Below, in pieces: positions 608 to 29,125 of a stretch of 30,722 nt of DNA. A model generated the notes under the pieces. That model searched no databases. It saw only the letters and a program-made list of their open reading frames with translations, and was not told the DNA's origin. Numbering within the stretch: the stretch's first letter is position 1; every line of letters begins with the position of its first letter. The stretch comes from a virus. The translations under genes were made by a program, and so were the position numbers. The stretch is taken from positions 1 through 30,722 of the IMG/VR virus record IMGVR_UViG_3300030419_002340; one strand, written 5' to 3'.

Positions 608-814
608 TCATTTATTTTCTTTCATGTGTTTTACATAATCAATAAGGCTAATTCTTGGCGCCTGCAGCTTGAAGCTTTTCTTTCCTTTAAAAATTTTCAT
701 TTTAACATACCTGTCCCAGGGCTTTAAGCTTAAGGCCAGATCTATACAAAGCGCTTGCAGCTGTCCACTGTTAGCTCCGTCGACCTTCAATGTTATCGTA
801 TCTTCTTTTTTCAT
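608..814 (-). CDS. 68-aa basic protein of unknown function, downstream of structured array
   Basis: This is a leftward gene of 68 residues starting MKKEDTITLKVDG and ending YVKHMKENK. I chose the start at 814 because AAGGAAAGG lies four bases upstream. The in-frame ATG seven codons earlier falls across that ribosome-binding site and has none of its own. The protein is lysine-rich with a mixed alternating pattern (TITLKVDGA, KMKIFKGKKSFKLQ) that suggests a small alpha/beta domain. It has no signal peptide or membrane segment, and I do not recognise a family. The array of stems at 830-1261 ends three bases before its ribosome-binding site, so translation could be controlled by that RNA. The probable promoter is the leftward one at 1482-1510, with the 24-aa peptide gene first in the unit. 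Confidence 0.7.
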   Translation of the reverse strand: MKKEDTITLKVDGANSGQLQALCIDLALSLKPWDRYVKMKIFKGKKSFKLQAPRISLIDYVKHMKENK

Positions 815-829
815 ATTTCCTTTCCTTAT

Positions 830-1261
830 GGTCAAGCGGAATGCGTCTCATGCCAAAAGGCGGGCCGCACCCAGCACTCGACCCCAGATCGGCGGTGGCC
901 ACTCCCTTCCGTCTACTCTAATGAAGCTTTCGCTCTTCAAGTGAGAGTTTGGTTGTTCTTGTCGCCGATCAGGGCTCAAGTGGTCAAGCATCTTATGGCA
1001 AACAGATTTCTCTGGCTGGACATTCCAACGCCATTTACAACATACTTGACCTCAGGTCTCCCTGTCGCGCAACTTTTGTTCGCTACGACACACGCCTGCA
1101 GGTTAGCAGGGAGACCCAAGCTCAAGTTTGGTCAAGCACGATTTATGCTACACGAACCTACGCGTATAGGCTGGTGGTGTAGCCACGAAACTTGACCCCA
1201 GGTCAGAGCTGGAACTTTTTTACCTTGGCATTTTTCATCCAAACCAGGTCTCTAACCAGGG
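830..1261 (-). ncRNA. Tandem array of six alternating stems, three ~146-nt units (candidate leader RNA)
   Basis: No convincing gene lies here. Three copies of GGTCAAG (830, 982, 1130) alternate with three of CTTGACC or CTCGACC (877, 1045, 1191) and pair as 7-bp stems. Between them lie longer stems: 883-894 with 963-974 (11 of 12 paired), 1055-1064 with 1107-1116 (10 of 10), and 1197-1212 with 1244-1261 (14 pairs, imperfect). Nested inner stems include GCTACAC (1147) with GTGTAGC (1177), and ATGGC (995) with GCCAT (1030). GGGCTCAAGT or GCTCAAGT recurs at 972, 1120 and 1259. Two plus-strand A-C mismatches (834/879 and 1204/1254) become G-U pairs on the minus strand, which favours a leftward RNA. 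The array ends just before the ribosome-binding site of the 68-aa gene. The repeated architecture is seen directly; a functional RNA is inferred. Confidence 0.55.
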
Positions 1262-1294
1262 CTCAAGTTTGCTGTCGTAGGCGAGGATTTTATT

Positions 1295-1377: not shown

Positions 1378-1452
1378 TTATTCCCAAGGACACATAAATA
1401 AGAACCCAATATGGACTAATATTAACATTACAATCCAAAATGTGAAACTCAT
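1378..1452 (-). CDS. 24-aa single-pass membrane peptide
   Basis: This leftward frame encodes 24 residues: MSFTFWIVMLILVHIGF followed by LFMCPWE. Nearly the whole peptide is a hydrophobic helix (about residues 3-20), so it would sit in the host inner membrane. It is preceded by AAGAAAGGAAAT, the leader of the other early genes, though the spacing to the ATG is on the long side. A perfect TTGACA-N17-TATATT promoter lies 30 bases upstream on the same strand. I do not recognise a family. Peptides like this can be small membrane regulators, toxins or leader peptides. Its position ahead of the structured array and the 68-aa gene makes a leader role possible. The promoter and composition argue that it is real. 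Confidence 0.5.
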   Translation of the reverse strand: MSFTFWIVMLILVHIGFLFMCPWE

Positions 1453-1476: not shown

Positions 1477-1505
1477 TTGACAATATAATCACTATGGGAT
1501 ATTAT
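1477..1505 (+). promoter_or_regulatory. Rightward promoter P3 with TATGGGATA box
   Basis: TTGACA (1477-1482), a 17-base spacer and TATTAT (1500-1505) match the sigma70 consensus closely. TATGGGATA (1493-1501) overlaps the -10. The promoter drives the 328-aa gene at 1542. It faces P2 across the same box, an arrangement that suits an exclusive directional switch. Confidence 0.78.
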
Positions 1506-1510
1506 GTCAA
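1482..1510 (-). promoter_or_regulatory. Leftward promoter P2, overlapping P3
   Basis: On the minus strand TTGACA (1510-1505) is followed by a 17-base spacer and TATATT (1487-1482). The TATCCCATA box (1501-1493) sits inside the spacer. It occupies almost the same DNA as the rightward promoter P3, so polymerase can bind in only one direction at a time. It would transcribe the 24-aa peptide, the array and the 68-aa gene. Confidence 0.7.
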
Positions 1511-3679: not shown

Positions 3680-3909
3680 GGGGTCCCACTGCTTTCCCCC
3701 TGTATACCTTGATTTACACTTAAACATGCTATAAATTCATTATGGGTCCCATATGAACATAGAAGAGATAAAAAAATTACCACCAGACGCCAGACGTGAG
3801 TACATGAAGTACGCTATTAAGTTAGCGGAAAAGAAAAAGGGGTCCCGAGTTAAATCTGATTTTCTAGCTTTTGTAAAACATGTTTGGCCAGAATTTATAG
3901 AGGGGTCCC
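3680..3909. repeat. Four copies of GGGTCCC around the terminase start
   Basis: GGGGTCCC occurs at 3680-3687, 3839-3846 and 3902-3909, and GGGTCCC at 3744-3750. The spacing is about 64, 95 and 63 bases. Two copies lie inside the terminase coding region and two upstream. The repeat is GC-rich in an AT-rich background and I did not notice it elsewhere in the window. A packaging-initiation (pac) or regulatory site is possible. Confidence 0.55.
3741..3753. promoter_or_regulatory. Compact TATGGG-T-CCCATA palindrome at the terminase start codon
   Basis: TATGGG and CCCATA flank a single T, and the last A is the first base of the terminase ATG. The halves share TATGGG/CCCATA with the early operator box, but without the GTATAA spacer. 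No good ribosome-binding site precedes this ATG, so the element may also shape translation. Whether the early regulator recognises it is unknown. Confidence 0.45.
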
Positions 3910-5216
3910 ATCATAAGATTGTAGCAGATAAATTTAATAAAATTGCAGATGGCAAAATTAAAAGAATGATTATTAATATGCCACCTAGGCATACTAAATC
4001 TGAATTTGCCTCCACGCTCCTTCCTGCTTGGATGATTGGCAGAAGACCCAACTTAAAGATAATCCAGACTACCCATACCACGGAGCTCGCTGTGAGATTC
4101 GGTAGAAAAGCTAAGACACTTATGGATACCGAAGAATATAAAAAAGTTTTTAAAACTAGATTAAGAGAAGATTCGCAAGCCGCGGGTAAATGGGAAACGG
4201 AACAAGGTGGTGAGTATTACGCCGCTGGTGTTGGTTCAGCCATCACTGGTCGTGGTGCTGATTTGTTAATCATTGATGACCCACACTCGGAGCAAGACGC
4301 AATGAATCCAGAAGCGTTGGAACGTGCTTACGAATGGTATACTTCAGGACCTAGACAACGTCTACAACCAGGAGGATCTATTGTTTTAGTAATGACAAGA
4401 TGGTCTTTAAAAGATTTAACAGCAGCTTTAATGAAAGCTCAAAAAGAAGTTAAGTCTGACAAATGGGAAGTCATAGAGTTCCCGGCGATTATGCCATCAG
4501 GTAAACCGGTTTGGCCTCAGTATTGGAAACTAGAAGAATTAGAAGCAGTTAAAGCATCTTTGTCTATTCCTAAATGGAACGCGCAATGGATGCAAAATCC
4601 AACTTCAGAAGAAGGAGCTATTATTAAAAAGGAATGGTGGAGAACCTGGAGAAGAGCAACTATTCCACCTTTACAACATGTTATTCAATCTTATGATACA
4701 GCTTATCTTAAAAAGGAAACTGCTGATTATTCGGCAATAACTACCTGGGGTGTATTTTACCCTAACGAAGACTCCTCAGCTAACTTGATATTACTAGATG
4801 CTGTCAAAGGAAGGTATGAATTCCCTGAATTAAGAAGACGTGCTTTACATCAATTCGACTATTGGAAACCAGAGACAGTTGTGATAGAATCTAAAGCTTC
4901 TGGACTACCTTTAGCAGCTGAACTGCGTCAAATGGGTATTCCAGTCGTGAATTTCACTCCTAGTAAAGGGAATGATAAACACGCTCGAGTCAATTCGGTA
5001 GCGCCTTTATTTGAATCAGGTATGATATGGGCACCTGAGAAAAAATTTGCAGAGGAAGTAATAGAGGAATGCGCTGCTTTTCCATATGGGGATTATGACG
5101 ATTTAGTTGACTCAATGACTCAAGCAGTCATGAGATTTAGACAGGGAGGTTTTGTAAGCCACCCTGAAGATTATAAGGATAAACCACTGATACATCAGGA
5201 GTATAAATACTATTAA
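3753..5216 (+). CDS. terL: Terminase large subunit
   Basis: This is the DNA-packaging motor: it pumps phage DNA into the prohead and cuts the concatemer. The 487 residues show the expected order. The ATPase domain comes first, with a Walker A-type NMPPRHTKSE (about 75-84) and Walker B LLIIDDP (171-177). A C-terminal RNase H-like nuclease follows, with acidic residues in QSYDTAY (Asp315), VIESKASG (Glu379) and YGDYDDLVDSM (Asp450 or Asp453). The length is typical. I kept the first ATG, although it lacks a clear ribosome-binding site and overlaps a palindrome; an alternative ATG lies at codon 18. No small-subunit gene is evident beside it. The stop overlaps the next start by one base. Confidence 0.95.
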   Translation: MNIEEIKKLPPDARREYMKYAIKLAEKKKGSRVKSDFLAFVKHVWPEFIEGSHHKIVADKFNKIADGKIKRMIINMPPRHTKSEFASTLLPAWMIGRRPNLKIIQTTHTTELAVRFGRKAKTLMDTEEYKKVFKTRLREDSQAAGKWETEQGGEYYAAGVGSAITGRGADLLIIDDPHSEQDAMNPEALERAYEWYTSGPRQRLQPGGSIVLVMTRWSLKDLTAALMKAQKEVKSDKWEVIEFPAIMPSGKPVWPQYWKLEELEAVKASLSIPKWNAQWMQNPTSEEGAIIKKEWWRTWRRATIPPLQHVIQSYDTAYLKKETADYSAITTWGVFYPNEDSSANLILLDAVKGRYEFPELRRRALHQFDYWKPETVVIESKASGLPLAAELRQMGIPVVNFTPSKGNDKHARVNSVAPLFESGMIWAPEKKFAEEVIEECAAFPYGDYDDLVDSMTQAVMRFRQGGFVSHPEDYKDKPLIHQEYKYY

Positions 5217-7876
5217 TGAGTTGGTCTAAAGGAATAGATATAGTTAGTAAGCTTTTAATTAAGAATGCTGCCAAAAATCCTACAGCAGGCGGAATACATA
5301 CTATTAGAAATAAGAGAGATTTTTTTAATCAAGCTTTTGAAGTTATCAAGCAAATGGATAACAAGGGTTTTGATATTGATAAAATTACCGAAAGAGATGT
5401 TAAAGTATTTTTAGGGAATCCTAAAAAATCTGGTGTTGATTCTCTAATGCAACGTAGAACTGAAACTTTTGGAGATATGAATCAACTAGAAAACCAACAA
5501 TGGTATCAAGATGCAGTTAAAAGAAATAGAAATCAAAACACAAGAGAAACTTTAAAAGTTATAGAAGGTGGTGGATTAGATAATATAGAATTTGCTGAGT
5601 TTAAAGATAAATACTTTACAAAGCTAATTGCTAATACTGATGAAGATATTCAAGCTTTTATTAAAAGAGTTATAAATAGAAAACAAGGTGATGAGTTTGA
5701 TAGATTATCTAAAGATCAAATGAAAGAGTTTTTAAAGATAGCTGATGATCGAATAAGAATGGGTCATGAAAAATTTATAGATAAATACAGAAACGTAGAT
5801 TGGGAAGACTCTCAAATGAATTTTAGAGTGGGTGGCCCGGTAAGATATGGTTATAAAATTGGTAAAGGTGTTAAAAGCATTAAAGGAGTTACAGACTTTA
5901 TTAATAAAAAATTTGGAAAAGGAACTATTAGTCAAGGCGTTGATAACTTTAGTTTTAAGAATCAAGATTATTTAGATACTAGGGAAATGTTTAAACGACT
6001 TACAAGAAAATTAGATCAGAAACAAGATTATAAAAATGCTTTAGAATTAGTTCAAGAAATAGATAAAAAACCTTTGAGTACTGATGAGATTGTTCAAAGA
6101 TATACAACACTATCTAAATTTCCTGAAGGAAAAGCTGTTATTAGAGATGACCTCTATGAAATTGAAAGAGGTGAAATGATTCCAAATATTGGAAATCAAA
6201 CTAGATCTAAACTTATAGACGACATAAGAGCAACTTTATCTACATCAAATAAACCAGCGGGTTGGAGTAATCCATATGATCACATGATTAAAAAATTTGG
6301 ACAATTTCGAAAGAAAAAACAACCTAATCCTTTTGATGATTTTAAAGAAACCGAAAAAGGTCAGATAGAAATGGATTTTGAAGATTGGGATCCTAAAGGT
6401 ATGGCTTCTGGAGGAAGGATTGGTTTTGCGGGAGGAAAAGGACCTACTCACTCTCAATTAGTTATTATGTATATGGAACAAGGCATGAGTTATGAAGATG
6501 CCGTTCAAGCAGCTAATGCTTCTACTAATCTACCTTGGGATATTTTAAAAGCTGAAGGTGGAAGAGTTCCATTTTTATATGGTGGTGGAACTGGAATAAA
6601 AAACATGTTGAACTATTTGTTAAAAAGAGGACAAATACAACCTAAAAGAGCTTCCGGTTTTGCAAAGAAAGTATCACCAAGATTAAATGAGAAAATGAAA
6701 GCGTGGATGAAAGAAACCTACCCAAAAGAATCTAAAAATTTAGAAAATATGAGAACAGAACAATATGGAAATATACTAGGAATGTTAAAAGCTGATAAAG
6801 GTCTTTTAGAGTTAATTTCTAAAGCAAAACAACTTCATCCAAATTTTTCAGATAAAGAATTAATGAATATACTGAGATCAGCCGGTACTGTTCCAGAACA
6901 TATGGCAAAAGATAATGCTTTTTGGGAAAAACTGATGAAATATACAGATATAGATCAAGCTATTATAGATATGGAAATGATTCTTAAAAATCAGGCTACC
7001 AAAGGAGAAGGACGTAAATTAAATGCCGATGGTGGTATTCAAAGAATTGGTTTTAAATATGGTAAAGGTGTTGATTTAGCTAGAAGAACTTTTCTTAAAT
7101 TATTAGGTGCGGTTATGGCTTTACCTATTGCTGCGCCTCTTCTTAAAAAAGCTGCTCCTAAAGTAGCTCCTAAAGTTGTACCTAAAACTCAATTTCCTGG
7201 AGTAGATGGAATGCCAGATTGGTTTCCAACTTTAGTTAGTAAATTTAGAGATAAAGGTAAACTTGTTGATTTAAGAGATAAAGATTTTGTTCACGGTAAT
7301 ATTTATGAACTTAATGTTCCAATTAAAGGAAAAGGAAACGTTAAAGTACAAATGGAACACAACGAACGAACAGGAGAAATTACAATTGATTGGAGAGGTA
7401 CTGATGATGTACCAAGAGGAATGTCATTTAAACCAGGAGAAACAGGTTGGCAAAAATATGGAAGCGATCCTGAATTTCCTCAAGCAACTGAAAATGTGAA
7501 AGTTGAAGTAGAAAGACCTGAATTTGATTATACAGAACCTGATTTCAGTAGTCAGGGTCCTGAAGATACTTCTCCTGATTCTGCAAACCCTTTAGATATT
7601 TTTGAAGAAGAAGATGAAGTGGTAGAATATTTAAGAAAATGGGCTACTAAAGATTTAGGTTCAGAAGGAAGTAATCCTTTAAGAGAAGCTTTAAAGAAGC
7701 ATCAAAAAAACTTTAAAACTCACAATGAAAACATGGAACAATTTCCAGATGCGACCGGACATGTAAATGATGCTGGAGATCTTGTAGAAGGCGAAGAAAA
7801 TATAGATATTTTTATGCCTGATAAATATACTCCTAAAAAATCCGGTGGCCTCGCTACAATGTTCAAGAAAAAATAA
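5216..7876 (+). CDS. 886-aa modular virion-type protein with internal twin-arginine-like segment
   Basis: This large lysine-rich protein is coupled to terminase by a TAATG overlap. It looks built of modules separated by glycine motifs: GGPVRYGYKIGKG (about 206), GGRIGFAGG (399), GGRVPFLYGGG (448), GGIQRIGFKYGKG (606) and a C-terminal SGGLATMFKKK. Such motifs are familiar to me from uncultured marine phage proteins. The first 200 residues are charged and helical. Residues 623-645 contain RRTFLKLLGAVMALPIAAPL, which resembles a twin-arginine signal followed by a hydrophobic segment but lies far inside the chain. An Ala/Lys/Pro linker follows, then an acidic C-terminal part. Its place between terminase and portal suggests a virion, ejection or packaging accessory role. 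I cannot assign a function. Confidence 0.75.
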   Translation: MSWSKGIDIVSKLLIKNAAKNPTAGGIHTIRNKRDFFNQAFEVIKQMDNKGFDIDKITERDVKVFLGNPKKSGVDSLMQRRTETFGDMNQLENQQWYQDAVKRNRNQNTRETLKVIEGGGLDNIEFAEFKDKYFTKLIANTDEDIQAFIKRVINRKQGDEFDRLSKDQMKEFLKIADDRIRMGHEKFIDKYRNVDWEDSQMNFRVGGPVRYGYKIGKGVKSIKGVTDFINKKFGKGTISQGVDNFSFKNQDYLDTREMFKRLTRKLDQKQDYKNALELVQEIDKKPLSTDEIVQRYTTLSKFPEGKAVIRDDLYEIERGEMIPNIGNQTRSKLIDDIRATLSTSNKPAGWSNPYDHMIKKFGQFRKKKQPNPFDDFKETEKGQIEMDFEDWDPKGMASGGRIGFAGGKGPTHSQLVIMYMEQGMSYEDAVQAANASTNLPWDILKAEGGRVPFLYGGGTGIKNMLNYLLKRGQIQPKRASGFAKKVSPRLNEKMKAWMKETYPKESKNLENMRTEQYGNILGMLKADKGLLELISKAKQLHPNFSDKELMNILRSAGTVPEHMAKDNAFWEKLMKYTDIDQAIIDMEMILKNQATKGEGRKLNADGGIQRIGFKYGKGVDLARRTFLKLLGAVMALPIAAPLLKKAAPKVAPKVVPKTQFPGVDGMPDWFPTLVSKFRDKGKLVDLRDKDFVHGNIYELNVPIKGKGNVKVQMEHNERTGEITIDWRGTDDVPRGMSFKPGETGWQKYGSDPEFPQATENVKVEVERPEFDYTEPDFSSQGPEDTSPDSANPLDIFEEEDEVVEYLRKWATKDLGSEGSNPLREALKKHQKNFKTHNENMEQFPDATGHVNDAGDLVEGEENIDIFMPDKYTPKKSGGLATMFKKK

Positions 7877-10815
7877 TGTTTGAATCATACTTAGATAAAA
7901 AAATAAACGCGGCACGTGGATTAATGCCAAAGAGAAAACCACAACAAGCCGTGAAAGAATTTAAAGAAGAACGTCTTAGAGAAAACGTAGACTACTTAAA
8001 CTCAAGAGGTATCCTTGAACAGGGGACCGTGGATTACATTCAAAAAGATATTCTTAAAGACAAAGCTCCAACAAGTTTTGCTTATGGTGGTTTGACAACA
8101 CCTAAACGTGGCTTGGTTGATGAACCAGGAAGTTATAGTGGTAAAGTTATAACACAATCTCAATTTGAAAAATTGTGGAATAAGTTTGAAGGAAGAAATA
8201 AAGAATTTGCTGATCTTTTAAATAATAAAAATTTTGTAACAGCCACAGGTAAAAAATTTACTGACAGAAATGTTTCTGAGTATGTTGGTTATTATGAATT
8301 AGACAGAAAACCTAGAAGCGGTAAAGTATTTCCAAAGACACAAAAAAAATTAGATAACTTAGATAAGTTAATTGTAGAGGCAAATAATTCTTATACAAAA
8401 ACCCCTAATATCGGAGAGCTAGTAAAAAAATCTGGATTTGTTAAATCTGGAAAACTATCTGATCTAAAACACGGCCCTTTACAATCTTTAATAAGAGAAA
8501 AGTTAAAAAAACTTTTAACAACCAATCAAAAAATGGAAAACTATATTAATAATGTAATGTTATCTGAAGATGCTTTAGTAAAAGATTTTTATTCCCCTGG
8601 AGCACATTTAAGAAAAAAATTTAACATAAGTTCGGCAACATATGCAAAATTTATGAAAAATAGTAAAGCTATTGCAAATAATAAAGAATTGTTTTTAAAT
8701 TTAGGTAGAGTACAGTCTTTTAATAAATATGGTTTTAACCCAGACGGTTCTTCAAAAACAGTTTCTGAATTTAGTAAGACTATTACAAACAGAGTTCCTT
8801 TTAGTGCTGGACATGGTGCACTAAGAGAGGATAATGCGACTAGTCAGATATTAAAATCAGCCATTAGAAATTATGAAAAATCAAAAGCTGCTGGAAAAAC
8901 ACCCAAAGTTACTTTCATAACTGATCCGGCCATAACTCCTACTAAAGATCTACAATTTATAGATAATGAAACTGGTAGATTATTCTCAGTAGATCCTTCG
9001 GTAGAAAACGTTGAGTTTAGAGGAAAGAACTATAAAAATAATTATTTAAACCATGTTGATGCAAGTAAACTATATGCAAAAGAATTTGGAAACGTTTATA
9101 GGATTTACGATAATGACATTCCAAAATATATGGATGCTACTATTTCAGATGGAAAAGGCGGTCAAATTAAATTAGACACAGCTCTTAGACGAAAACTTTT
9201 TGAGAGAACTGGAAGTAAAAATTATTTAACTAGAAGAGCAGTAGAGTTTGATCATCTTGATATAGTTGATGATCCTTTTGGACGAAAACCAGGAAATATA
9301 AGATTAATTGATAGGCTTACAAACAATCAAGCGGGTGGTATTAAACAAGCGGGCGACGTAGCAAGAGGTAAAAACCCTAAACTTTTAAAAGAACGTTTAG
9401 ATGCTATCGGTTATAACGTTAAAGATAAAAATGTTGAAGGATTAATAACACGTTTGTCAGATAATTATAAAAAACCAATTAAATTTGTAAGTCCACGAAC
9501 TGAACAAAATATATTAAAAAGAAAATCAAAAACTGAAATGTTTGAACAGGCAATGAATAAAAGAGGGGCAAAAATAAAAGCCCAAACAGTATCAAAATTA
9601 GCTAAAGATATGAATGTAAAGATTTGTTCTACACAAATCGCTAAAAAATCAGGAGGGGGAAGAATTGGTTTTAAAGGAAAAAGTTGTGGAGAAGAATTTG
9701 CTAAAAAACAACCAGAACAATTTTTAGAACAAGCAGAAAAAAGTTCTCTTCAAGAAAAACTTGTTAATTTAAAAGATAAGAATCCAGCTAGATTTAAAAC
9801 TCTTATGAAAAATACAGGTAAGGTTGCTAAAGTGCTAGGACGTTCCACTTTTGGTCCTTTGGGTTTAGTAGGAGGTGAAGCAATAGCTTATGGACTAACT
9901 GATTGGGCTGGAGGTAAAATGGGACTGTCTTCAGAAACTTCTTCCGATGTAGCTGCTTGGTGGAATAATAAGGATAGTGCTAGAGAAGATATTTATAAAG
10001 CCATGGATAAATTAGGATATACTGATGGAGAACAGGCAGCAGTAAATAAATTTTTAGACGCAACTAATTCTCAAGCATTATACGAAAGATCCAAAGTAGC
10101 CGGAGAAAGTGATTTAGCACAAAACTATGAACCTATAACTGGTATATCTCAGGAAAAGATGCGAGAAATGGTAGAGTTTAGAATAGGTCAAGCAAAACAA
10201 AAATACGACAACGATGTTGAGAGTATGTTTAATAATATGTTTATAGGAACTGGTATAAATCCTAATGAGGCTACCGAAGAACAGTTTGATAAACAAATTG
10301 ATATTACATCTGAACAAGCAATGGGTGGTCTAAGACAAGCCACAAGAACATCTATGCAAGATGTAGATCCAAAAAGATATGAAGCTATGACTACACAGGT
10401 AAATCCTTATGCTGGACCTATTTGGAATTTATTTACAGGAAGTAAACCACTAAGAAGCATATTCGGTAATGAAAGAGCTCAAAATCTTTGGGAGGCGGAA
10501 AAACTTCAAAAACAAGGCAAATATGATGAGGCTAATGAAATCATTAGAAGAGAAAATGAGAAAATTAATTTTCCAATGTCACAAGCAACGTGGCATGATC
10601 AAACTTTTAAAGTTCCTATGCAAGCTATGCAGGGATGGCTAGATAATACAGTGGGTGGTTTTGGAAAAGATACTTCTACTGCTTATGGAACATATCTTAT
10701 GCCTCAAACGATGGCAGGCGGTGGAATAGCTAGTATTAGAAGACCAAATGCAATACCCCCTGAAAAAGGACCTTTACCTCAGGGCTTGGAAAATCTTCGA
10801 TATTATGTTACATAG
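7876..10815 (+). CDS. 979-aa modular protein with HNH-like motif and glycine-rich marine-phage motifs
   Basis: This gene is coupled to the 886-aa gene by another TAATG. Residues 456-490 contain EFDHL, then GNIRLIDRLTNNQAGG ending in Lys. That gives Asp459-His460, Asn474, Asn483/484 and Lys490, a spacing that resembles the His-Me finger (HNH) nuclease core. Regions before it look like DNA-binding or homing-endonuclease accessory helices. The glycine motifs FAYGGL (68), SGGGRIGF (592-599) and a C-terminal AGGGIASIRRPNAIPP recall the neighbouring protein. A glycine-rich hydrophobic stretch follows residue 640. HNH proteins beside terminases are known to assist packaging in other phages, but here the motif sits in a giant modular protein. 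The nuclease call is inference from pattern only. Confidence 0.7.
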   Translation: MFESYLDKKINAARGLMPKRKPQQAVKEFKEERLRENVDYLNSRGILEQGTVDYIQKDILKDKAPTSFAYGGLTTPKRGLVDEPGSYSGKVITQSQFEKLWNKFEGRNKEFADLLNNKNFVTATGKKFTDRNVSEYVGYYELDRKPRSGKVFPKTQKKLDNLDKLIVEANNSYTKTPNIGELVKKSGFVKSGKLSDLKHGPLQSLIREKLKKLLTTNQKMENYINNVMLSEDALVKDFYSPGAHLRKKFNISSATYAKFMKNSKAIANNKELFLNLGRVQSFNKYGFNPDGSSKTVSEFSKTITNRVPFSAGHGALREDNATSQILKSAIRNYEKSKAAGKTPKVTFITDPAITPTKDLQFIDNETGRLFSVDPSVENVEFRGKNYKNNYLNHVDASKLYAKEFGNVYRIYDNDIPKYMDATISDGKGGQIKLDTALRRKLFERTGSKNYLTRRAVEFDHLDIVDDPFGRKPGNIRLIDRLTNNQAGGIKQAGDVARGKNPKLLKERLDAIGYNVKDKNVEGLITRLSDNYKKPIKFVSPRTEQNILKRKSKTEMFEQAMNKRGAKIKAQTVSKLAKDMNVKICSTQIAKKSGGGRIGFKGKSCGEEFAKKQPEQFLEQAEKSSLQEKLVNLKDKNPARFKTLMKNTGKVAKVLGRSTFGPLGLVGGEAIAYGLTDWAGGKMGLSSETSSDVAAWWNNKDSAREDIYKAMDKLGYTDGEQAAVNKFLDATNSQALYERSKVAGESDLAQNYEPITGISQEKMREMVEFRIGQAKQKYDNDVESMFNNMFIGTGINPNEATEEQFDKQIDITSEQAMGGLRQATRTSMQDVDPKRYEAMTTQVNPYAGPIWNLFTGSKPLRSIFGNERAQNLWEAEKLQKQGKYDEANEIIRRENEKINFPMSQATWHDQTFKVPMQAMQGWLDNTVGGFGKDTSTAYGTYLMPQTMAGGGIASIRRPNAIPPEKGPLPQGLENLRYYVT

Positions 10816-23713: not shown

Positions 23714-24538
23714 ATGAGTACAATAGAAGTAGATAAAATAAAACCACAATCAGGAACAGCATTACAAGTTGGTGAATCCGGCGATACAATGACTGTACCT
23801 TCAGGTGCAACTTTAACTACTACAAACGCAACAGTAAATTTACCAAACACTTCAGTTACAAATGATAACTTAGCTGGGTCAATTGCAAATGCTAAACTTG
23901 CTAATTCAGCAATTACAATTAATGGAAGTGCTGTATCTTTAGGGGGTTCAGTTACTGTTGGGGAAACCAAACCTACCATTTCATCTATTAGTCCAAGTGT
24001 AGTTGAAAATACACAAACAGCGATAACAATAACAGGTACTAACTACGTTTCGATACCTTACGTTGATGCTATTAACTCTTCAACAGGTGCAATTGTAACA
24101 GCTGATAGTGTTGCATTTACTTCAGCTACAACAATTGTAGCTACATTTACATTGTCAGTTGATGGTACATACTTTCTTAGAATTGAAAATAATGATGGTA
24201 ATGCTGTAAGAAGCTCAACCGCATTATTAACAGTTTCAGATGCTCCTGCTTGGGTAACTGGTTCCGGAAGTTTAGGAGAAACAGACGCTGGAGGAACATT
24301 AAACTATACAGTATCAGCAACAAGTGCTACAAGTTATACAATTCAATCTGGAGCTTTACCAGGTGGGGGTTCACTTAACACCTCAACTGGTGTAATATCT
24401 GGAACGGAAACTGGCTCTACTACGTCAACAACATACAATTTTACTATTAGAGCAACAGACGCTGAAGCTCAAACAGCCGACAGAGCTTTCAGTATAACAA
24501 TATCTCACGGCGCAACTGGCGGCGGAGGTTTTAACTAG
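23714..24538 (+). CDS. IPT/Ig-domain adhesin, cassette copy 1
   Basis: The 274-residue protein has three parts. The first is an N-terminal fibre-type region (about 1-82) with SGDTMTVPSGATL and SITNG-type repeats, ending NGSAVSLGGSVTV. The second is an IPT/TIG-like Ig domain (about 84-165), KPTISSISPSVVENTQTAIT and onward. The third is a second Ig-like domain of the He_PIG kind (about 170-265), IQSGALPGGGSLNTSTGVIS then FTIRATDAEAQTADRAF. Such modules extend tail fibres and bind surfaces. The gene begins a three-gene set that recurs at 26955 and starts again at 30231. The ribosome-binding site is weak, so coupling from the upstream gene (one-base gap) is likely. Confidence 0.78.
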   Translation: MSTIEVDKIKPQSGTALQVGESGDTMTVPSGATLTTTNATVNLPNTSVTNDNLAGSIANAKLANSAITINGSAVSLGGSVTVGETKPTISSISPSVVENTQTAITITGTNYVSIPYVDAINSSTGAIVTADSVAFTSATTIVATFTLSVDGTYFLRIENNDGNAVRSSTALLTVSDAPAWVTGSGSLGETDAGGTLNYTVSATSATSYTIQSGALPGGGSLNTSTGVISGTETGSTTSTTYNFTIRATDAEAQTADRAFSITISHGATGGGGFN

Positions 24539-24547
24539 GATAATATT

Positions 24548-25906
24548 ATGGCAGGTACATGGCTTTCAAAATCAGGAATTGACCCCACATCATCAACAAC
24601 TACAGCAACTTGGAGTTTTTGGTTTAAAACTGATTCCCATACTGATGGTTCAACAGAACATTTTTTATTTTCAACTTACTCAGATGGTAATAGTAGAATG
24701 CATATTAAATTAGATGCTAACAACTGTGTTGATGTAAACAGTCGAATGAGTAGTACTGTTCATTTAAGTAAAATAACAAATAGACGATTAAATGACCCAA
24801 CTGCTTGGTATCATCTAGTAGTGACAATTGATACAACAGATGCAACAGCTGACGATAGATGTAAAATTTATGTCAATGGGGTAAGAGAAACAAGTTTTAG
24901 TTCTAGTACTAACCCATCACAAAACCAAGATATACAAAGTTTACAAGGTAATCAGACTCATTATGTAGCTACTTATGGTGGAAATACTGGTAATGCTTCC
25001 TACACATTTGGGGGATGTATGAGTTGTTTAAACTTTATTGATGGTACTGCTTATCAAGCTAGTACATTTGGAAGTACTGATTCGAGTACAGGCGAGTGGA
25101 AGATTAACGTCACACCGACGGTGACCTATGGAAATAACGGTTGGTTTATTCTTAAAAATGGAAGTGGAATAACTAACTTAGCTGGTAATTCTGCTGGAAA
25201 CTTTACTTTAGGAGGAGGTACACTTACAACAACCGTGGATAATCCGAGCAATAATTTCTGTTCCTTAAATCCTAGAGGATATGCAGCGAACAGTTTTACT
25301 TTGATTGAATTAAACAATTATTCAGGAGGAGCAGATAACAACTGGAGAAGTATTTTTGGAACTTTAGGAGCTAAAGCCGGAAAATATTATTATGAAATGA
25401 AATGTATAGGTACAAGTGGTAATGAAAGATTTGGAGCATGTACTGTAGACCAAGCTAATAAATGTACAGGTAGTACAGGAAGATATGATGATTCGGCCTC
25501 TGGTTCCGAAGGATATGGGTATGCTTCTGATGGACAAAAAACAAATAATGGTGGTGCAGCTTCTTATGGTAACACTTGGACAACTAATGATATTTTATCT
25601 TGTGCTATAGATTTAGATAATAATAAAATTTATTTTGGAAAAAATGGAACATGGCAAGATTCAGGAGACCCAACCTCAGGTTCTACTGGTACTGGTGCTG
25701 CATATACAATAGCATCAGATAAGTTTTATATCCCAGCTTTTGCAAGTTATGGTGCTGCAGCTAATTTAGCATTTAATTTTGGAAATGGCTTATTTAGAAC
25801 AACCGCTATAAGTAGTGAGGGAACAAATGCAAGTGGAGTTGGAAAATTTGAATATGATGTTCCAACGGGATATACTGCTTGGTCAACTAAAGGATTAAAT
25901 AAATAA
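24548..25906 (+). CDS. LamG plus SPRY-domain adhesin, cassette copy 1
   Basis: The 452-residue protein starts with a concanavalin A-like LamG-type domain (about 1-185). Evidence includes WYHLVVTIDTTDATADDRCK, IYVNGVRETSF and FIDGTAYQASTFG. The C-terminal part is SPRY-like (about 279-430), with GKYYYEMKCIGTSG, then IDLDNNKIYFGKNGTWQDSG and LAFNFGNGLF. Both folds bind sugars or proteins on cell surfaces. The gene follows the IPT/Ig gene with an AACTAGGATAATATT leader and overlaps the next gene by one base. The strongest parallel is the paralogue at 27761. Receptor binding is inferred. Confidence 0.8.
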   Translation: MAGTWLSKSGIDPTSSTTTATWSFWFKTDSHTDGSTEHFLFSTYSDGNSRMHIKLDANNCVDVNSRMSSTVHLSKITNRRLNDPTAWYHLVVTIDTTDATADDRCKIYVNGVRETSFSSSTNPSQNQDIQSLQGNQTHYVATYGGNTGNASYTFGGCMSCLNFIDGTAYQASTFGSTDSSTGEWKINVTPTVTYGNNGWFILKNGSGITNLAGNSAGNFTLGGGTLTTTVDNPSNNFCSLNPRGYAANSFTLIELNNYSGGADNNWRSIFGTLGAKAGKYYYEMKCIGTSGNERFGACTVDQANKCTGSTGRYDDSASGSEGYGYASDGQKTNNGGAASYGNTWTTNDILSCAIDLDNNKIYFGKNGTWQDSGDPTSGSTGTGAAYTIASDKFYIPAFASYGAAANLAFNFGNGLFRTTAISSEGTNASGVGKFEYDVPTGYTAWSTKGLNK

Positions 25907-26954: not shown

Positions 26955-27761
26955 ATGACTAGTACAGTAAAAGTAAATACAATAACAACAGAATCAGGTA
27001 ATACTATTACCGTTGGTGAAGCGGGGAAAACTATTGCTCTTAACACTAATACTGCTGTTAATTTACCTACTGGATCAGTAACTAATGCAGAGTTAGCTGG
27101 ATCAATTGCAAATGCAAAATTAACTAATAGTAGTATTACTATAAATGGTTCGCCTGTTTCTTTAGGTGGAAGTGTAACTGTGGGAGAAACCAAACCTACA
27201 ATTTCATCTATTTCACCCAGTGTAATAGAAAACACTCAAACAGCTGTAACAATTACAGGAAGTAACTTTGTTTCTCTTCCTTATGTAGATGCAATTAATT
27301 CTTCTACAGGTGCTATTACGACAGCTGATTCAGTTAGTTTTACAAGTTCAACAACATTAGTTTGTAATTTTACATTATCTGTAGATGGCACTTATTATCT
27401 AAGAATAGAAAATAACGACGGGAATGCTGTAAGATCCAGTACTGCATTATTAACCGTCTCTGATGCTCCAGCATGGGTAACAGCTGCTGGAAGTTTAGGA
27501 ACAACAGCTGCGGCAACTTCAATAAGTTATACCGTAAATGCTACCGATGCGACTTCATACGCAATTCAATCAGGTTCCCTTCCAGGTGGAGGTTCATTAA
27601 ACACAGCTACTGGTGCAATAACTGGTACTGAAACTGGTTCTACAGCTACAACTACATACAATTTTACGATTAGGGCTACTGATGCTGAAGCACAAACGGC
27701 AGATAGGGCCTTCTCAATTACAATTTCTCATGGTATACAAAATGGAGGACAATTCAATTAA
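26955..27761 (+). CDS. IPT/Ig-domain adhesin, cassette copy 2
   Basis: The 268-residue protein has the same domain order as the 23714 gene. Its N terminus (MTSTVKVNTITTESGNTITV) is shorter and different, lacking the PSGATL element shared by copies 1 and 3. From GETKPTISSISPSV onward it follows copy 1 almost residue for residue, including IENNDGNAVRSSTALLTVSD and RATDAEAQTADRAFSITISH. Codon choice differs at many positions between these stretches, so the similarity is kept by selection at the protein level. It begins two bases after the previous stop. Confidence 0.78.
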   Translation: MTSTVKVNTITTESGNTITVGEAGKTIALNTNTAVNLPTGSVTNAELAGSIANAKLTNSSITINGSPVSLGGSVTVGETKPTISSISPSVIENTQTAVTITGSNFVSLPYVDAINSSTGAITTADSVSFTSSTTLVCNFTLSVDGTYYLRIENNDGNAVRSSTALLTVSDAPAWVTAAGSLGTTAAATSISYTVNATDATSYAIQSGSLPGGGSLNTATGAITGTETGSTATTTYNFTIRATDAEAQTADRAFSITISHGIQNGGQFN

Positions 27762-29125
27762 TGGCTGCTTATATTGATTTAGGAACAGGATTTGGAGATA
27801 GTAAAACTTACACTATATCTACGTGGGTTAAAGGTTATAACCAATTTAGAGTACAAGAAGACAATCCAATTATGTCTGCAGGTAGTGGTGGTAATGGTGC
27901 TGAATTTAGATTTAATGATGGAAATTTAGAATTTTATAATTATCCAGGTTCATACAATGCAAGAGTTCAAACTAATGCTCGATTAGATGATGTAAATGCT
28001 TGGTATCATGTTATGGCAGCAATTGATACTACACAAGCTAGTTCATCTGATAGAATAAAACTTTATATAAATGGAGTTCAAGAAACTTCATTAGCTCAAA
28101 GCACTTATCCCTCACAAAACACACAACTGTATATAGGGGACGCCTCATCTACTCATTATGTTGCAAATAATTATAGTAGTGGACAACAATTTTTAGGACT
28201 AATGACACACTTTGCTTTTGTTAATGGAAGTGCATTAACACCTACTTCATTTGGGGAAACAGATACAGATACAGGTATCTGGAAGCCTAAATCCGATTTA
28301 TCTAGTCTTACTTGGGGCACAAAAGGTTTTTGGCTTAAATTTGAAAATTCAGCAAACCTGGATTTAGATAGTTCTTCTAATGCTAATACTTTTACAACTA
28401 GTGGGACTATTACACAGACTAATGATACTCCTTCGAACAATTTTGCCGTCTTAAATGTAATGGGCTATAAAAATGGTGGCCCAGAAATAGCTAACGGTTT
28501 AACAACAGTTACAAGTGATGGTAGTACAAAATTTTGTTATGCTAGTTCACTTGGGGTTAATAAAGGTAAATACTACGCTGAATTTAAAATAGTTGGTAAT
28601 GAAGATAGCGCTACCCATCATATCGGTATTACAAGTGATCCAGCTACTAACGCTTCATACAATCAATTTCCAGGAGAAGATAATATAAGTTATTCTTATG
28701 GTCAGTTTGGAAGCACTTGGTATAATGGTACTGGAACAGCTCAAGGAACTACTTATACAACAGGTGATATCGTAGGAGTAGCATTGGACTGCGATAATTC
28801 AAAATTGTATTTTAGTAAAAATGGAACTTGGATTTCAATAGGTGGAGTTACTGGAGTTCCAACTTCAGGGGCAAGTGGAACTGGAGCTATAAGTATAAAT
28901 TCCCCAACTGCAAATACTGGAAATGGTTTTTGGCATTTTGCTATTGGTGATAATTCTGGAAGTTATGGTGGAGCAAATGTTGTAGCATGTAACTTTGGGA
29001 ACGGTTATTTTCAAACAACCGCAGTGGCTTCAGCAGGTACATCACCATCAGAAGGTGGAGTATTTGAATATGATTGTCCTAGTGGATATCAAGCATTATG
29101 TACTAAAGGAATGAATAGTTTTTAA
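27761..29125 (+). CDS. LamG plus SPRY-domain adhesin, cassette copy 2
   Basis: The 454-residue protein parallels the 452-residue protein at 24548. The LamG-type half includes NAWYHVMAAIDTTQASSSDR, IKLYINGVQETSL and FAFVNGSALTPTSFGETD. The SPRY-like half (about 268-440) has GKYYAEFKIVGNEDSATHHI, then LDCDNSKLYFSKNGTWI and VACNFGNGYF. It ends FEYDCPSGYQALCTKGMNSF, against FEYDVPTGYTAWSTKGLNK in copy 1. The sequences share architecture but differ widely, as expected for receptor-binding paralogues. It overlaps the IPT/Ig gene by one base. Confidence 0.8.
   Translation: MAAYIDLGTGFGDSKTYTISTWVKGYNQFRVQEDNPIMSAGSGGNGAEFRFNDGNLEFYNYPGSYNARVQTNARLDDVNAWYHVMAAIDTTQASSSDRIKLYINGVQETSLAQSTYPSQNTQLYIGDASSTHYVANNYSSGQQFLGLMTHFAFVNGSALTPTSFGETDTDTGIWKPKSDLSSLTWGTKGFWLKFENSANLDLDSSSNANTFTTSGTITQTNDTPSNNFAVLNVMGYKNGGPEIANGLTTVTSDGSTKFCYASSLGVNKGKYYAEFKIVGNEDSATHHIGITSDPATNASYNQFPGEDNISYSYGQFGSTWYNGTGTAQGTTYTTGDIVGVALDCDNSKLYFSKNGTWISIGGVTGVPTSGASGTGAISINSPTANTGNGFWHFAIGDNSGSYGGANVVACNFGNGYFQTTAVASAGTSPSEGGVFEYDCPSGYQALCTKGMNSF

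Follow-up and report, generated by a model that had tools for sequence, protein, structure and literature searches.

Arrays of exchangeable hairpin modules with self-complementary loops in the terminase region of pelagiphages: a candidate system of RNA self-recognition

Phages related to HTVC027P, which infects SAR11, the most abundant bacteria in the ocean, carry tandem arrays of paired hairpins in which a conserved scaffold encloses interchangeable modules. Sequence comparison shows that many module families contain a palindromic 6-mer whose letters change but whose self-complementarity is kept. We consider it fairly probable that the array is a modular RNA transcribed leftward and that its loop palindromes mediate multivalent, genotype-specific homodimerization. 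The array family is large and apparently has not been described previously.

The window analyzed here is the whole 30.7-kb IMG/VR virus record IMGVR_UViG_3300030419_002340. The closest isolate terminase to the large terminase subunit (TerL) of the window is that of HTVC027P (74% identity), and the window is assigned to the genome of an HTVC027P-like pelagiphage. The array occupies a divergent region, with terL (3753..5216, plus strand), the marker of the fixed neighborhood of the array, pointing rightward and a run of small genes, leading to terS in relatives, pointing leftward. On the minus strand, the order is a promoter-like site TTGACA-N17-TATATT (1482..1510), an ORF for a 24-aa small membrane peptide (MSFTFWIVMLILVHIGFLFMCPWE; 1378..1452) on the upstream side of the array, with similar peptides in other phages, the array itself (830..1267), and a 68-aa gene (608..814) that has homologs in about 21 array loci. 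Two claims of the original prediction, made from the sequence of the window, hold here: the minus-strand promoter scores 11/12, and the array directly precedes a small gene, ending at the ribosome-binding site (RBS) of the 68-aa gene. The GC content of the array is 0.52 compared to 0.36 in the rest of the window phage. Pfam searches with the five small genes adjoining the array and PHROGs searches with the neighboring small genes yielded no matches, and no tRNA or tmRNA was detected in the window. The impression, gained by eye from locus L098, that a promoter lies directly 5' of every first unit was rejected as a rule because this is the case in only 3 of 207 arrays.

Several features of the surrounding sequence were recorded along the way. 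In various phages, small Zn-finger-like peptides (CIDCGVEE immediately before the stop) or membrane peptides (MxFWIxxLILVH...) terminate just 5' of the first A hairpin; given that peptides of different kinds are found at the array site in different phages, small genes, like the RNA modules, turn over there. Runs of CAAGCNN-type heptad repeats (AAGCTTCAAGC...) follow the array (496-545 and 659-680 in the window), are also present on the minus strand of L298 near 7730-7770 and 7400-7470, and flank intergenic hairpins repeatedly in HTVC027P and many others of these phages. In translation, these heptads yield KLQAPSFKLQA-type ORFs, and CAAG/CTTG is common to the heptads and the scaffold. A strong GC-rich hairpin (ACCGGAGCTCGCGGTCCTTCGGACCGCTCGCTCTCGGT) lies 3' of the 68-aa gene (547-588) and is nearly identical in the sister phage L001. 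Downstream of terL (5216-10815), the window encodes an 886-aa and a 979-aa protein with several scattered glycine-rich motifs of the GG-R-IGF type (ASGGRIGFAGG, GGIQRIGFKYG, and GGGRIGFKG). A two-gene tail/adhesin unit is apparently duplicated (23714-25906 and 26955-29125), the 274-aa and 268-aa ORFs being near-paralogs and the 452-aa and 454-aa ORFs being alike.

The array consists of three repeats, each comprising two hairpins, A (s1 CUUGAGCCC...GGGGUCAAG s2) and B (s2 GGUCAAG...CUUGACC s3), that have the strand s2 in common. In the RNA, 5' to 3', the A half reads s1 CUUGAG-CCC-U-GAUC, module A, GAUC-U-GGG-s2 GGUCAAG, and the B half reads s2 GGUCAAG-y, module B, r-s3 CUUGACC-AAA, followed by the next s1. 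The GGTCAAG elements at 830, 982, and 1130 and the CTCGACC or CTTGACC elements at 877, 1045, and 1191, on which the original prediction was built, are present at these positions, and the long stems assigned between them are borne out by folding. The prediction of one structured unit per repeat has to be replaced by the A and B pair, and what was taken for divergence of a tandem repeat with its pairing preserved turns out to be a conserved scaffold whose interiors are unrelated, exchangeable modules recombined between phages. The recurring spacing is indeed nearly constant in the window, as a result of similar module sizes; other arrays contain one to six A units at variable spacing.

All parts of the array are on the minus strand. 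A hairpin 1, the first in the RNA (1191..1267; CUUGAGCCCUG...CUGGGGUCAAG), contains a module common to L098. B hairpin 1 (1130..1197), closed by GGUCAAG/CUUGACC, contains a module also present in L103, L153, L173, L175, and the scaffold 2 locus L469; in its palindromic loop UACGCGUA (1159..1166), the core ACGCGT (1160-1165) is replaced by GTGCAC or ACTAGT in homologs. A hairpin 2 (1045..1126; CUUGAGCUU..GAGGUCAAG) has a 10-bp upper stem and again a module common to L098; no swap of its palindrome CCUGCAGG (1095..1102) for another palindrome was seen. The module of B hairpin 2 (982..1051), closed by GGUCAAG/CUUGACC, is also common to L098, and similar modules are present in L427, L405, and L393. 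A hairpin 3 (877..980; CGACAAGAACAAYCA...GAGUGNNCACCG) belongs to family M5, which includes eight members with a replaced inner hairpin. Its palindrome GUGGCCAC (895..902) corresponds in homologs to GUGCGCAC, also palindromic, or to GUGUGCAC, with TGGCCA at 896-901 giving way to TGCGCA. Finally, B hairpin 3 (830..883), closed by GGUCGAG/CUUGACC, adjoins the RBS of the 68-aa gene and has a 90% identical homolog in L295.

The minimum free energy (MFE) fold of the minus strand of region 820-1280 reaches -179.8 kcal/mol (z = -6.25, with none of 100 shuffles as good) compared to -151.9 kcal/mol (z = -2.54) for the plus strand, which supports the minus strand as the RNA strand, in agreement with the original prediction. 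That prediction had named compensatory changes among homologs as support for a functional RNA, and many were found. Covariation of the A stem was assessed in 190 units that were anchored by their constant ends only, with 200 partner shuffles as the control: the variable positions 14-17 are paired at frequencies of 0.99, 0.96, 0.91, and 0.81 compared to 0.53, 0.52, 0.59, and 0.51 in the best shuffle. At position 16, G-U accounts for 0.23 and A-C for 0.01, an asymmetry that marks the RNA strand. Two mismatches in the A stem are themselves kept, G.G in 192 and U.U in 165 of 195 units. The A stem of scaffold 2 (see below) shows the same covariation, and in the B stem, positions 1-3 are paired at 0.81, 0.71, and 0.63, with shuffle maxima of 0.73, 0.53, and 0.48. 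The strand s2 pairs with either s1 (in A) or s3 (in B), never with both at once. In the isolate HTVC027P, all three strands are changed in concert (ACTGAT / ATCAGTCA / TGACTGAT), so that both the A and the B pairing of s2 appear to be under selection.

The family was delineated by scanning IMG/VR with a degenerate pattern for the junction CTTGACC..CTTGAGC and with a pattern for the A stem. The A/B architecture was found in at least 120 IMG/VR matches for each of these two scaffold 1 patterns (those of the junction pattern including chance matches), and at least 120 matches were also obtained for a second scaffold (CTGATCCC/GGGATCAG) first encountered in the isolate HTVC027P and in L063/L079; these contig counts are minimum values, and contigs from metagenomes do not constitute independent samples. 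A third scaffold, TGTGCCA/TGGCACA, is present in phage 023Pt_psg01 (L299) and in L036, which are terminase-related phages; in this scaffold, the strands CTGTGCCA and TGGCACAG recur and pair alternately, in L299 on the minus strand at about 8190-8480 (reverse-complement coordinates). Among the matches listed, nearly all array loci of both scaffolds lie between terL and terS of HTVC027P-like pelagiphages, and 119 of the 122 non-redundant loci have syntenic neighbor genes. For scaffold 2, again among the matches listed, terL precedes the array by about 2.9 kb and has the opposite orientation in 50 of 52 cases, and terS follows it by about 2.7 kb in the orientation of the array in 71 of 71; for scaffold 1, terS is on the array strand in 72 of 72 listed cases. 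Recognizable units are absent from 24 of 30 terL relatives with enough flanking sequence, so the array either is not essential to the clade or is represented there by other scaffolds.

In the genome collection, three contigs contain units: one from a metagenome-assembled genome (L300) and two from Pelagibacteraceae assemblies (L301 and L302). A host origin of the arrays was ruled against given that only these 2 of the 297 sampled Pelagibacteraceae genomes carry units and that one of the two contigs (L301) encodes a phage TerL. DNA similarity searches with the array against phage records gave no match, which we attribute to the shortness of the constant parts and to the different scaffold carried by the isolate HTVC027P.

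The interiors of the hairpins are exchanged as modules. Among the matches listed, the two scaffolds together provide 342 A interiors, which sort into about 250 families; 190 of these families were seen once, and 19 are found in both scaffolds; the Chao1 estimate is about 430-570 module families per scaffold. The sister phage L001/L111 has a TerL 99% identical to that of the window: the two match at about 92% up to position 824 and from position 1257, and the array between these points is entirely different. The boundaries of the whole array match this replaced segment, and a reading of the repeat as protein coding was rejected because the segment as a whole is swapped for an unrelated one. The window and L098 have two A modules and one B module in common, in another combination.

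Two module cores, module 1 and module 2, were scanned for everywhere by sequence. Module 2 (GGCAAAGUMGGACG..GCCCACGC) is present in A hairpins of scaffold 1, scaffold 2, and a GAACC/GGUUC variant, as well as at a B position in L447 and, in L441, on its own stem, and module 1 also occurs on a plain UUGAGGGGGG/CCCCCCUCAA stem (GGGGGG/CCCCCC). Alignment folding of the two scanned modules revealed pair-keeping double changes at 11 of 21 and 10 of 24 pairs; the loops are nearly invariant while the stems change, an invariance of the cores that is partly built into the scan. Solitary modules are intergenic in phages of the same clade. Single modules were observed as intercistronic hairpins on their own stems in L424, L425, L430, L437, and L438, in L465, L467, and L468, and in L494 and L521; in related phages, several are located 15-50 nt after a stop codon.

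Palindromes are in excess in the modules (282 6-mers vs 184 +/- 12, and 104 8-mers vs 46 +/- 7). In MFE folds, only about 45% of the palindromic hexamers are mostly in loops, and chance alone would account for about 185 of the 282; module 2 is an example of the modules that have no clear palindrome. Within families, one palindrome is replaced by another inside otherwise fixed sequence. In family M3, 26 of 27 distinct contexts have a palindrome at the N6 segment, and five different sequences are represented; the single exception, CUCGGG, can still self-pair with a U-G. In family M4, all array-type copies have a palindromic loop, and six sequences occupy this position of a small hairpin, a count that leaves out five unrelated pattern matches outside any array-type stem. 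The palindromic helix of M3 and M4 consists entirely of standard pairs (100%), each of its three pairs having changed on both sides, and the covariation score of the whole structure is above those of all 500 shuffles and all slid versions. Across all families, both members are palindromic in 63 of 219 differing aligned hexamers compared to 3 of 128 in the mirror control and 3 of 96 in the direct-repeat control; for hexamers that differ at four bases, the figures are 29 of 38 and, in the mirror control, 0 of 6. Across 54 sequence contexts, palindromic hexamers change their letters and remain palindromes. The two neighboring bases at the center keep their complementarity in 77 of 91 double changes, and among single changes, G-U weakly exceeds A-C (25 vs 17); these palindrome counts are of de-duplicated events and were made without a phylogeny. 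Because the central bases of a palindrome are adjacent and unable to pair within the molecule, the loop palindromes are probably pairing sites at which identical RNA copies interact by kissing loops. Modules of one array have palindromes in common in 8.0% of cases and modules of different arrays in 5.9%. Intramolecular kissing between modules of one array was rejected for want of a clear excess, and the pairing is probably between transcripts rather than within an array.

Under the reading that we favor, the array would be transcribed leftward, toward the small-gene and terS run, and identical transcripts would pair through palindromic kissing loops in the manner known from the HIV-1 dimer initiation site. 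With several different palindromes per array, this would amount to a multivalent, genotype-specific RNA self-recognition tag by which the accumulating transcripts of a phage are brought together with their own kind in dimers or clusters. Such assembly could shift the choice between A and B and, with it, the timing of downstream gene expression; alternatively, genomes might be clustered through nascent RNA. The structure, the covariation, the potential for mutually exclusive pairing, the exchange of modules, the kept self-complementarity, and the fixed location and orientation can be read directly from the genomes; transcription of the array and kissing of identical transcripts are what we infer, and the role could be in transcript clustering, operon timing, packaging, or as a decoy. 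The genes for gp30, gp33, and gp34 of HTVC027P, which show unusual timing in infection RNA-seq (PMC12753301), lie just downstream of the HTVC027P array. This timing fits a regulatory or assembly role and is no proof of one.

The strongest competitor, to which we give only slightly less than an even chance, is a cis-acting leader or intercistronic regulator, in which the A/B switch would determine how the small genes downstream are translated or how fast their RNA decays and the loops would bind a ligand, a protein, or an sRNA, so that RNA-RNA assembly is not needed. The original prediction had offered a tandem leader, a regulatory RNA, or a replication origin, and the array is indeed placed where a leader or intercistronic region of the leftward terS run would be. 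The invariable position before a co-oriented terS in both scaffolds (among the matches listed), the end of the array at the RBS of the 68-aa gene, the mutually exclusive pairing of s1, s2, and s3 conserved through a triple change, and the intergenic location of solitary modules all accord with such a regulator, which nevertheless leaves unexplained the turnover of palindromes with kept self-complementarity and the hundreds of swapped modules. Swapping would be natural if the modules were decoys or aptamers for a host factor, exchanged in an arms race. Replacement of the whole array between sister phages, the huge module diversity, and the conservation of loop sequences within modules are all compatible with such an anti-defense or host-takeover RNA, but no target is known, Rfam recognized no RNA mimic, and the covariation of adjacent bases in the palindromes points to self-pairing; we regard this explanation as unlikely, if worth keeping in mind.

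Alternatively, the array could act as DNA, that is, as a pac site, a recombination cassette, or a set of protein-binding dyads between terS and terL, with incidental RNA structure. Palindromes are natural dyad sites, those of the array could equally be sites for proteins on double-stranded DNA, and the modules recombine in cassette-like fashion between the two terminase genes. Against this, the stems show the strand asymmetry of G-U over A-C, the mismatches are strand specific, one strand folds far better than the other, the unpaired module loops are invariant, and there is no single recognition sequence, which makes a purely DNA-level element improbable. The same location, together with the putative loop-loop pairing, brings to mind a packaging RNA that, like the phi29 pRNA, would build a ring on the terminase or portal; considering that no pRNA was matched in Rfam, that arrays differ freely in how many modules they have and of which kind, whereas a motor has a fixed stoichiometry, and that many relatives have no array, we consider this very improbable. 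Template switching is able to perfect quasi-palindromes, so the palindromes could in principle be a functionless mutational by-product; however, invariant unpaired loops common to different phages and scaffolds, tolerated G-U pairs, and the swapping of 6-nt palindromes for different ones inside otherwise fixed sequence leave this scarcely credible.

Consistent with the original prediction, the arrays belong to no named RNA family. A search of the window against Rfam 15, including pRNA, GOLLD, ROOL, and riboswitches, gave no match at the gathering threshold; a relaxed search of 300-1560 produced nothing better than E>4; and Rfam searches of ten array loci returned three weak matches, none credible for the arrays. 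One of the nearest parallels is the HIV-1 dimer initiation site, where the loop of a short hairpin displays a 6-nt palindrome that varies in sequence from one virus type to another while self-complementarity is kept. By sequence, the hexamers of the arrays behave alike, and M4 presents such a palindrome in a 7-nt loop; the arrays differ in belonging to DNA phages, in comprising many different modules in tandem on several scaffolds, and in having no retroviral context. The phi29 pRNA is a phage RNA that multimerizes by loop-loop pairing and is linked to packaging genes. The array, likewise phage-borne, near packaging genes, and possibly multimerizing, lacks the pRNA consensus in Rfam, changes its module composition, and resides in phages with a classical TerS/TerL pair. 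GOLLD and ROOL are phage-associated structured RNAs that form homo-oligomers, and the array, too, is a phage-borne structured RNA that may multimerize, but each of them is a single large fold, the array has no Rfam match, and we know of no module exchange or palindrome turnover in either.

Like integron attC sites and CRISPR, the arrays have a fixed place with exchangeable parts between conserved ones; here, however, both parts are short non-coding RNA hairpins, and there are no cassette genes. Unlike CRISPR spacers, the variable parts are structured, covarying, and common to different phages, and no cas-like recurring neighbor was recognized by eye among the array neighbor sequences. Unlike integron cassettes, the units span 60-150 nt without ORFs of cassette size, and no integrase-like recurring neighbor was recognized by eye. 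The imperfect inverted-repeat hairpins with variable interiors resemble REPIN/BIME elements, which differ in that the array occupies one syntenic site per phage and its interiors are covarying, conserved modules. Instead of the dispersed copies and RAYT transposase of REP/REPIN elements, synteny was found at nearly all listed loci, with units in just two of the sampled host-family genomes. Type III toxin-antitoxin systems combine identical tandem pseudoknot repeats with a ToxN-like toxin, whereas the array units are non-identical and the five neighboring small genes have no Pfam match. We know of no other system in which structured RNA modules recombine on common scaffolds, stems with a shared strand exclude each other, and palindromes in loops turn over. 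No earlier report of such arrays was found in the open-licence literature, and we assign the arrangement neither to Rfam nor to CRISPR, integrons, or REP elements.

The arrays appear to be abundant among phages whose hosts are the sea's most numerous bacteria, and they lie outside Rfam. The turnover of palindromes with self-complementarity kept across dozens of contexts is evidence, from evolution, that phage RNAs pair with copies of themselves, and the arrays would offer a testable system for natural RNA self-recognition, with cultured HTVC027P on HTCC1062 and published infection RNA-seq under PRJNA1253180 at hand. They also bear on the role of multimeric RNAs carried by phages and constitute a large natural catalog of candidate orthogonal kissing-loop modules. 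A more speculative possibility, which we put forward tentatively, is that pelagiphages share and shuffle hundreds of small RNA modules, every one bearing a self-complementary loop that can evolve, and combine them into arrays that serve as genotype barcodes such that only transcripts of the same genotype zip together. If this is true, RNA assemblies would organize or time the infection by one phage or insulate it from co-infecting relatives.
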